Assembly: GCA_017502125.1 (NCBI GenBank)
Contig: JAFVVN010000040.1
Span: forward strand, 1-64,000
From: Bacteroidales bacterium
GTDB lineage: Bacteria; Bacteroidota; Bacteroidia; Bacteroidales; UBA932
Length of the DNA: 64,000 nucleotides
Direction: 5' to 3'
In this document: positions 21,132 to 22,625 of the stretch, piece after piece
How the letters are laid out: each line of letters opens with the position of its first letter
Position numbering within the stretch: position 1 is the first letter of the stretch
Notes under the pieces: model-generated
The model's input: the letters and a program-made list of their open reading frames with translations, nothing else
Told to the model about the DNA's origin: nothing
Database searches by the model: none
Program-made: the position numbers and the translations under genes

Positions 21132-22483
21132 TTTGATATGATTACTTTTTCTATTATAGGGGTCTGGTGACTGTATGATATGAAGGCGAGCGACGGAATC
21201 GGTCTGGTGATGATGAGATTGGCCTTCTTTCCGACCGTGATGGAACCGAGCTTGTCGCTGACACCCATTGCATATGCTGTGTTTATCGTACATGCATTGA
21301 ATGACTGTTCAGGAGTAAGACGCATGCGTATGCATCCCAGAGCCATCACGAAACGCATGTTGCCGCTTGGACTTGAACCTGGATTATAGTCGGATGCAAG
21401 AGCCACAGGAAGTCCAGCTTCAATATACCCCTTGGCGTTTCCATATGGTATTCCGAGGAAGAAAGAACATCCGGGAAGCATTGTAGGCATTGTCCTGCTG
21501 CCTCTCAAGGCTTCTATCTCTGCATCTGTCGTCTTTTCCAGATGGTCCACTGAAAGTGCATTGTGCTTGACTCCGACCTGCACGCCTCCAGAAACTTCCA
21601 GTTCGTTTGCGTGAATCTTCGGAGTGATTCCATATTCTGCAGCCTTGCTCAATATCCTGTCAGTTTCCTCCACTGTGAAGAATCCGGCATCACAGAATAC
21701 ATCCACAAAGTCGGCAAGTCCCTCCTGGGCGACCCGTGGCAGCATCTCGTTGCAGACCAGATCCACATATTCGCTCTGACGACCTTTGTATGCCCGTCCC
21801 ACAGCGTGCGCTCCAAGGAAGTTGGCCCGTACGGTGATAGGAGCTGTCTCCTTGATGCGTCGGATCACTCTGAGCATCTTGAGTTCATCCTCCACGGTCA
21901 GGCCATATCCGCTCTTTATCTCCACAGCTCCCGTGCCCATTGCCATGATTTCCCTGACGCGCTCCATGGACTGTTCATACAGCTCATCCTCAGATGTCTC
22001 ATGAAGAAGATCCGCTGAATTGAGGATTCCGCCGCCTCGTGCGGCAATCTCCTCATATGACAGTCCGGCGATCTTGTCCCTGAACTCTCCGTCACGGCAT
22101 CCGGCATACACGATATGTGTGTGGCTGTCGCAGAATGCCGGCATCACCACTCCTCCTTTGGCATCGATATATTCAGTCTCAGAATGTGCGGAGAAGTTGC
22201 CGGATTCGGGAGATGTTTCCGGTGCAGCGGATTCAGAAACCATGGCCGCCCGTGGCCTTGTGAACGGGAGGGGCCCACGAAGTGGGAGGGATTCAGTCTC
22301 TGAATCTGGAGCACCGGAAACATCGGTGCCACCTGATCCGAAACCAACAATAACCCCATCCTCGATGACCAGATAAGCATCATGCAGACACTCCACATGC
22401 CCCATCTGCTCACCTTCCAGTTTCCTCACATCAGCCGGCAGAATCCCCGCCAACGTACCTATATTATATATAATGGATTTCAT
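21128..22483 (-). CDS. hutI: Imidazolonepropionase with an in-frame repeat insertion
   Basis: A 451-residue amidohydrolase that opens imidazolone-5-propionate to N-formimino-L-glutamate, the third step of histidine breakdown. FCDSHTHIVYAG carries the HxH metal site, and HANELEVSGG and SVDHLEKTTD carry further ligands. The ATG at 22483 (MKSIIYNIG) is preferred to the start 8 codons upstream. Between GVIVGFG and YIDAKGGVVMP, where related enzymes have only a short loop, residues about 54-91 are encoded by a palindromic repeat; its two arms yield similar peptides (DVSGAPDSE and SESAAPETS). The reading frame is kept, so the enzyme may still work. The esterase gene is coupled downstream by ATGA. 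Confidence 0.92.
   Translation of the reverse strand: MKSIIYNIGTLAGILPADVRKLEGEQMGHVECLHDAYLVIEDGVIVGFGSGGTDVSGAPDSETESLPLRGPLPFTRPRAAMVSESAAPETSPESGNFSAHSETEYIDAKGGVVMPAFCDSHTHIVYAGCRDGEFRDKIAGLSYEEIAARGGGILNSADLLHETSEDELYEQSMERVREIMAMGTGAVEIKSGYGLTVEDELKMLRVIRRIKETAPITVRANFLGAHAVGRAYKGRQSEYVDLVCNEMLPRVAQEGLADFVDVFCDAGFFTVEETDRILSKAAEYGITPKIHANELEVSGGVQVGVKHNALSVDHLEKTTDAEIEALRGSRTMPTMLPGCSFFLGIPYGNAKGYIEAGLPVALASDYNPGSSPSGNMRFVMALGCIRMRLTPEQSFNACTINTAYAMGVSDKLGSITVGKKANLIITRPIPSLAFISYSHQTPIIEKVIISK
22212..22324. repeat. Palindromic repeat, copy A, inside hutI
   Basis: Arms of 26 bases (22212-22237 and 22299-22324) are complementary at 23 positions. They enclose a 57-base core (22240-22296) that recurs in copy B with one difference. 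The core contains two small hairpins, CCCGT/ACGGG and CCCAC-GAA-GTGGG, and two GGGAGGG runs. It lies within the coding sequence of hutI without breaking the frame. Confidence 0.88.
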
Positions 22484-22518
22484 AACTATTGCGTTAACAC
22501 CAGACAAAAGTATGATTT

Positions 22519-22625
22519 ATTTGGATACCGGTGTTTTTCAAAACCATGGCCGCCCGTGGCCTTGTGAACGGGAGGGACCCACGAAGTGGGAGGGATTCAG
22601 TTTTGAAAAATATCGGTATTCAAAT
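22519..22625. repeat. Palindromic repeat, copy B, between hutH and hutI
   Basis: The same 57-base core (22544-22600) in the same orientation as copy A, but flanked by different 25-base arms (22519-22543 and 22601-22625) that are complementary to each other at 22 positions. It starts 5 bases after the hutH stop and could act on the shared hutH-hutI transcript as a processing or termination structure. Confidence 0.88.

Follow-up and report, generated by a model that had tools for sequence, protein, structure and literature searches.

Within a hut gene cluster of a Bacteroidales genome (assembly GCA_017502125.1), two short elements share a nearly identical core, flanked by arms that differ between the copies but are complementary within each. 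Either such a core enters palindromes that are already in place, or the stem is maintained as a stem, changing in sequence around a fixed loop. We asked which of these accounts for the arms, using the window (the whole stretch analyzed, the first 64,000 nucleotides of contig JAFVVN010000040.1) together with related copies collected from other genomes.

Geometry and predicted fold of the window copies

The two copies have a 61-nt core in common, differing at a single position, and arms that are 86% complementary in copy 1 and 88% in copy 2 (Table 1). This confirms the claim of an earlier sequence-only reading that a common core is enclosed by arms matched within each copy. Its figures (a 57-base core; 23 of 26 and 22 of 25 complementary arm positions) are nearly the same as those recomputed here, and its spacing of 195 bases between the copies is corrected to 194. 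Both inner hairpins and both GGGAGGG runs that it described are present. When folded as RNA, the + strands of the two copies reach z-scores of -5.7 and -6.1, with none of 200 dinucleotide shuffles of each folding as well. On this strand, copy 2 is paired along its entire 26-position arm stem, the three non-Watson-Crick positions being G-U; the P2 hairpin of copy 1 is absent from the minimum-energy fold of that copy. Since the minus strands outperform their own shuffles as well (z -7.3 and -3.6), folding energy alone does not decide the strand.

Table 1. Features of the two element copies and the genes around them, in window coordinates
Feature	Position	Strand	Remark
hutI, imidazolonepropionase, TIGR01224	21128..22507	-	copy 1 lies in frame in the hutI variable linker
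Direct repeat of 22291-22308 (16/18)	22171..22188	+	left end of the 120-nt in-frame difference from L077
Left arm, copy 1	22212..22240	+	29 nt; pairs with 22296-22324
Core, copy 1	22237..22297	+	61 nt; nearly invariant in the family
Hairpin P2, copy 1	22249..22268	+	CCCGT/ACGGG; one pair covaries in the family (G-C, A-U, G-U)
Hairpin P3, copy 1	22274..22286	+	CCCAC-GAA-GTGGG; stem sequence varies and covaries across copies
Right arm, copy 1	22296..22324	+	29 nt; near-identical sequence present once in coreless relative L077
Left arm, copy 2	22519..22544	+	26 nt; pairs with 22600-22625
Core, copy 2	22541..22601	+	shared with copy 1
Hairpin P2, copy 2	22553..22572	+	
Hairpin P3, copy 2	22578..22590	+	
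Right arm, copy 2	22600..22625	+	26 nt; pairs with 22519-22544
hutH, histidine ammonia-lyase, TIGR01225	22630..24102	-	copy 2 lies between hutH and hutI

Family size, distribution and genomic context

The window copies are members of a large family of small mobile palindromes in gut Bacteroidales, with a nearly fixed core and arms that are almost free but matched; no described family fitting the element was found in the literature searched. We collected 131 distinct copies, of which 109 reach an arm score of 12 or more and fall into 70 locus groups. The other 22, with weak or truncated arms, were left out of the arm counts, so that within-copy pairing is measured on arm-selected copies; the cross-copy, slid and shuffled controls do not hinge on this arm-based choice alone. 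The core was matched in 73 of the 101 genomes of the genus, with nine matches to copy 1 in the window's own genome. An exact 22-mer search of an 84,980-species collection recovered 36 DNA stretches, all titled Bacteroidales except one titled Bacteroidaceae. In an order-wide sample of 295 genomes, two matched the core pattern with at most one mismatch, namely the window's genome and G426, which belongs to another family.

Among 68 copies that we placed, 39 lie between genes (three of them between divergent genes), 16 are contained in an ORF from mechanical calling and 13 sit at the edge of a locus; for many, a stop codon is no more than about 30 bases away. Two EamA-domain ORFs and one shikimate-kinase-domain ORF stay open through a copy, with no empty allele seen for them. 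A further core, family B (CCGTGCTACCCCTCTGGCCGCAGAGGGAGGGG, with the same GGGAGGG hairpin ending), occurs with its own matched arms at L131 (within 1490-1760) and, judged by eye from the protein, in frame in the HutI linkers of two other genomes (L079 and L088). About 3.8 kb beyond the window end lies a Y1 (RAYT-like) transposase gene (G000:C7:67784-68062; L187, L229), near which copies of a repeat like AAATCGCCTGCGCCAGCTGCCGCAGGCGATTT are found.

Assembly may have shaped this collection. Among the matches listed, 13 of 150 start within 200 bases of a contig start, against about one expected if contigs average ~23 kb, as we estimate. Short-read assemblies probably break at copies with identical arms, which can thus stay hidden in such genomes, and the collected set would then favor differing arms; the arm contrast between the two window copies is probably in part such a survivor effect. 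Such a bias would not account for the two-sided changes found where two genomes share a site (see below).

Arms conserved as base pairs

Taking one copy per locus group (70 copies), within-copy arm pairing amounts to 86-100% at positions 1-21 and falls to background by about position 32, compared with 25-41% at positions 6-21 when arms from different copies are paired. Arm sequence itself is almost free past the innermost five positions: beyond position 5, the left arm holds at most 0.41 bits per position, with a weak preference for G. We found no terminal inverted repeats common to the copies, and shared right arms occur only in subfamilies, such as those of G234 and G426 (three copies each).

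For covariation, we aligned 31 copies picked for clean geometry, comprising 29 of the 70 locus groups and the two window copies. Paired combinations fill 97.4% of the cells, and the covariation score of 0.621 (shuffle mean 0.137) was reached by none of 500 shuffles; it drops to 0.079-0.108 when the structure is slid along the alignment. Two-sided changes were observed at 17 of 19 arm pairs, three of eight pairs of the 3' hairpin and one of seven pairs of the 5' hairpin. Four of the five covariation measures lie above all 500 shuffles, and the remaining one, further pair types (66 versus 58.5), was reached by six of them. An unguided RNAalifold run gives nearly the same fold, with 33 pairs, 21 of which have two-sided changes. 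The three-way junction proposed by the sequence-only reading is therefore supported: the arms and the 3' hairpin covary, as does one pair of the 5' hairpin. So, strongly, is its suggestion that the stem co-varies around a fixed loop, which draws on the contrast of within-copy and cross-copy pairing, on the 31-copy alignment, and on matched changes at shared sites.

Mismatches in the stems are asymmetric between the strands. Read on the core strand, the 126 arm mismatches of the 109 copies include 56 of G-T or T-G type and 15 of A-C or C-A type (binomial p 1e-6); with one copy per locus group, the counts are 39 and 9. The inner hairpin, parsed in 49 of the 70 copies, has 30 mismatches of G-T type and four of A-C type. 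Among the 31 aligned copies, one pair of this hairpin occurs as GU in 19, as AU in 10 and as GC in one, and is unpaired in one. This excess of G-T over A-C points to the + strand as the molecule that would fold, more likely as RNA than as DNA. Strand-biased mutation tied to the orientation of the element could also have generated it.

Matched change at sites shared between genomes

We compared 19 sites common to two genomes, taking a single pair from each locus group; some pairs may represent independent insertions at one site. There, 297 arm positions are unchanged and 116 have changed on both sides and still pair; one-sided changes number 15 (six keep a G-U pair and nine break the pair), and three positions changed on both sides are unpaired. 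Core mismatches amount to 31 of 627 positions (4.9%), compared with a flank divergence of 14.9%.

Our preferred reading, to which we assign a probability of about 0.6, is a dispersed, non-coding mobile palindrome of MITE- or RPE-like kind, whose + strand folds as an RNA three-way junction and whose arms drift under a pairing constraint. The arms of the element, which is ~105-130 nt long, would form the closing stem around a 5' hairpin and a 3' hairpin, the latter variable, with nearly invariant joining segments in between. These arms would move with the element and then drift, constrained to pairing alone. Pairing would be retained because a mobility enzyme acting in trans, or else a host RNA process, recognizes the folded + strand RNA, and arm-to-arm copying at the palindrome probably helps to restore pairing.

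The same matched changes could arise with no selection on RNA if template switching during replication across the palindrome copies one arm onto the other, a process that may also act alongside the preferred reading. Exchange across the arms does happen, since in five of the 19 site pairs the core has the opposite orientation with respect to the flanking DNA; one of these five (L207/L029) rests on flanks only 72% alike. These inversions also count against the preferred reading, being odd for an RNA read from a neighbor's promoter. In 11 low-divergence pairs, out of 23 hand-picked ones, two-sided changes comprise 15 of transversion type and eight of transition type, next to seven one-sided changes. 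Passage through G-U intermediates does not predict such an excess of transversions, which speaks for some arm-to-arm copying, and outer arm blocks that differ almost as a whole (e.g. L110/L301) point the same way. Copying alone, however, is at odds with the G-T excess in the arms and the standing G-U pair of the inner hairpin, and likewise with a core that has diverged far less than its flanks. We therefore consider it doubtful as the sole source of the pairing, though the strongest of the alternatives.

Origin of the arms

Comparison with relatives showed whether arms and core come and go together. Four sites (L369, L360, L374 and L267) have neither core nor either arm, the outermost few bases aside, with the two flanks identical at 93/93%, 94/87%, 90/96% and 80/93%, respectively; each may represent the state before insertion or after loss. 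Arms and core are thus present or absent as a unit in the comparisons L169/L369, L205/L267, L013/L374 and L025/L360, with counter-examples at L077, L105 and L361. More distant relatives (L133, L150, L151 and L154) also have neither arm, and we did not count them as proof. At L270, an empty site, the left arm is perhaps alike, in purine-rich sequence. We dropped L123, initially a candidate empty site, because an element whose arms are similar occupies that site in L130 and L152. Also set aside as uninformative were L261, L262, L263, L264, L265, L268, L269 and L271 (rearranged, one-sided or at a contig end), L362 (unrelated DNA at the site), and L371, L372 and L378 (one flank only).

Arms also recur between loci. 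In G234, three contigs are identical for 86-91 bases starting at the core end, a stretch that includes the right arm, before running into unrelated DNA; three contigs of G426 show the same pattern over the same length, and in both sets contig ends truncate most of the left arms. Two contigs of G021 have both arms in common. That unrelated loci within a single genome have a right arm in common indicates that arms can travel with the element. Across the collection, 28 of 5828 pairs of non-orthologous arms are alike at 16 or more of 24 positions, as against none after shuffling; these 28 are not independent, several coming from one subfamily. According to the sequence-only reading, identical arms elsewhere, or sites lacking arms and core together, would make this an ordinary MITE or REP element. 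Both were for the most part observed, but "ordinary" goes too far, given arms that share almost no sequence in most of the copies collected.

Fold-back synthesis offers a different origin, in which each insertion copies the target flank in inverted form, so that the arms are target-derived from birth. Its main support is copy 1 itself, which looks as if one arm came from the target. In the hutI gene of coreless relative L077 (flanks 86-93% alike), the right-arm sequence is present once, in frame, without the left arm and core, leaving a 120-nt in-frame difference bounded in the window by the 16/18 direct repeat. This comparison counts against the preferred reading, although a deletion between the two direct repeats could instead have removed the left arm and core from L077. 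With the four empty sites holding no arm sequence beyond the outermost few bases, and one right arm occurring at unrelated loci, a target origin of the arms seems unlikely.

Insertion footprints are sparse. A 5-nt target duplication candidate is seen at L169/L369 as a single case, and among the 70 copies no target duplication of fixed length is consistent. Direct repeats of 6 nt lie near the arm ends in seven of the 70 copies (permuted mean 0.58), six of them being self-complementary hexamers, which paired arms yield by themselves. This absence of a consistent duplication, and of any mobility enzyme tied to the element, counts against the preferred reading, as do the well-folding minus strands and the one covariation measure reached by six shuffles.

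Other core families and candidate mobility systems

An inverted-repeat scan of the collected loci revealed other core families of the same build: C, D, X and a small one. Family X has a ~190-nt core inside matched arms of 28-30 nt (L266 316-544 and L207 331-549), and in L266 it occupies the stem site held in G130 (L212) by family A, the window-type core. Two families with conserved core and variable arms (CCACCCCCGGCTAGGGGG.. and CGTGTCCACCCCCGGACACGGG..) were observed at L161, L147, L090 and L304 and at L174, L168 and L038, along with a small palindrome whose 23-25 nt loop (TCCTGTTCGTAAGGGCCAGAGTC) is shared and whose arms measure ~20 nt (L028 1376-1444; L029 1603-1667). A ~70-nt module (GTCGTGAGTGCC..GCCCGCCGG) inside the core is present or absent at the same site in L405/L413 (G336:C4, C95) and in L112/L126; similar modules occur in family C, which suggests module exchange. 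A longer repeat ending in CAGAAGCTGACCTTTTGGGTCAGCCTCTT carries family A at L396-L398, L039, L066, L059 and L002, with the inverse sequence left of L002, and is perhaps a carrier MITE. At L129, L141, L144 and L145, other short palindromes ending in ..ATGACG stand at sites with family A in relatives; they appear to resemble the CGTC-tagged repeats of PMC3733652.

A more speculative possibility, which we hold to be quite improbable, is a self-propagating bacterial RNA. The three-way junction would be the active RNA, as a ribozyme or enzyme-bound, and would be copied back into DNA; the arms would be rewritten during or after each move, as only outer-stem pairing matters, and unrelated cores (families C, D and X) would use the same matched stem. 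Twelve loci with several core families returned no Rfam match at gathering score, and seven weak ones at E up to 5 (best MIR918, 38.9 of 268 bits); in the window itself, gathering-score matches were limited to one tRNA elsewhere.

Movement as a REP-type element, in single-stranded DNA form, by a Y1 (RAYT-like) transposase would fit the presence of Y1 proteins in 78 of the 101 genomes, and DNA, too, tolerates G-T better than A-C. Nevertheless, the 13-base core pattern (at most one mismatch) occurs in none of the 26 stretches around 24 different Y1 genes, two of these genes being covered by two stretches each. A shorter, 9-base piece of the core did match in 10 of the stretches when one mismatch was permitted, which we take as chance. 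No GTAG or CGTC tag was seen by eye at the hairpin foot, and no tetranucleotide is conserved along or beyond the arms at left-arm positions 6-40. Moreover, G013, a 96% complete genome with nine core matches, yields no Y1 match. Such a mode of movement is very unlikely.

Least probable of all, and rejected as a general rule, is the swapping of cores within palindromes already present or their entry into such palindromes, the latter raised by the sequence-only reading: coreless palindromes do stand at sites occupied in relatives (L105, L361), and L212 and L266 combine a homologous stem with unrelated cores, but both arms are missing from the four empty sites, which are fairly close, and L105 looks like a decayed element, its inner arm resembling those of other copies and its site lacking a palindrome in several other relatives and holding other elements in others.

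Comparison with known systems

Mobile palindromes are usually recognized by conserved ends, and arms conserved almost only as base pairs suggest recognition of a folded RNA instead. Through its many independent loci, the family provides a natural record of long-stem evolution, and it allows selection to be tested against arm-to-arm copying as the source of compensation. Among described elements, Rickettsia palindromic elements (RPE; PMC10969869) are likewise small palindromic repeats of several families that also insert into protein genes without disrupting the reading frame. The arms of the present family, which covary, have hardly any sequence in common, and the host is a Bacteroidales lineage; this distinction is drawn from published RPE descriptions. 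MITEs have ends that are common to copies and act with a transposase, whereas shared ends are the exception among the copies collected here, and no transposase was found in a search that covered proximity to Y1 genes. Bacterial MITEs such as QMITE2 and ERIC do resemble the element in being short and non-coding with inverted-repeat ends, and folded transcripts are described for MITEs (PMC10969869). REP sequences of the GTAG and CGTC families, associated with RAYT, are palindromes close to or inside ORFs, and CGTC repeats are also reported in Bacteroidetes (PMC3733652). The present element is longer, forms a predicted three-way junction, has no tag tetranucleotide that we could see, and shows no core beside the 24 Y1 genes. 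Riboswitches and small ribozymes are structured RNAs with a variable P1 stem. The element resembles them in its near-invariant junction and in a stem conserved as pairing only, but is scattered over many unrelated loci, in either orientation, with no Rfam match at gathering score. The mobile palindrome is thus known as a kind; what is new here is a stem conserved almost only as pairing and probably read as RNA.
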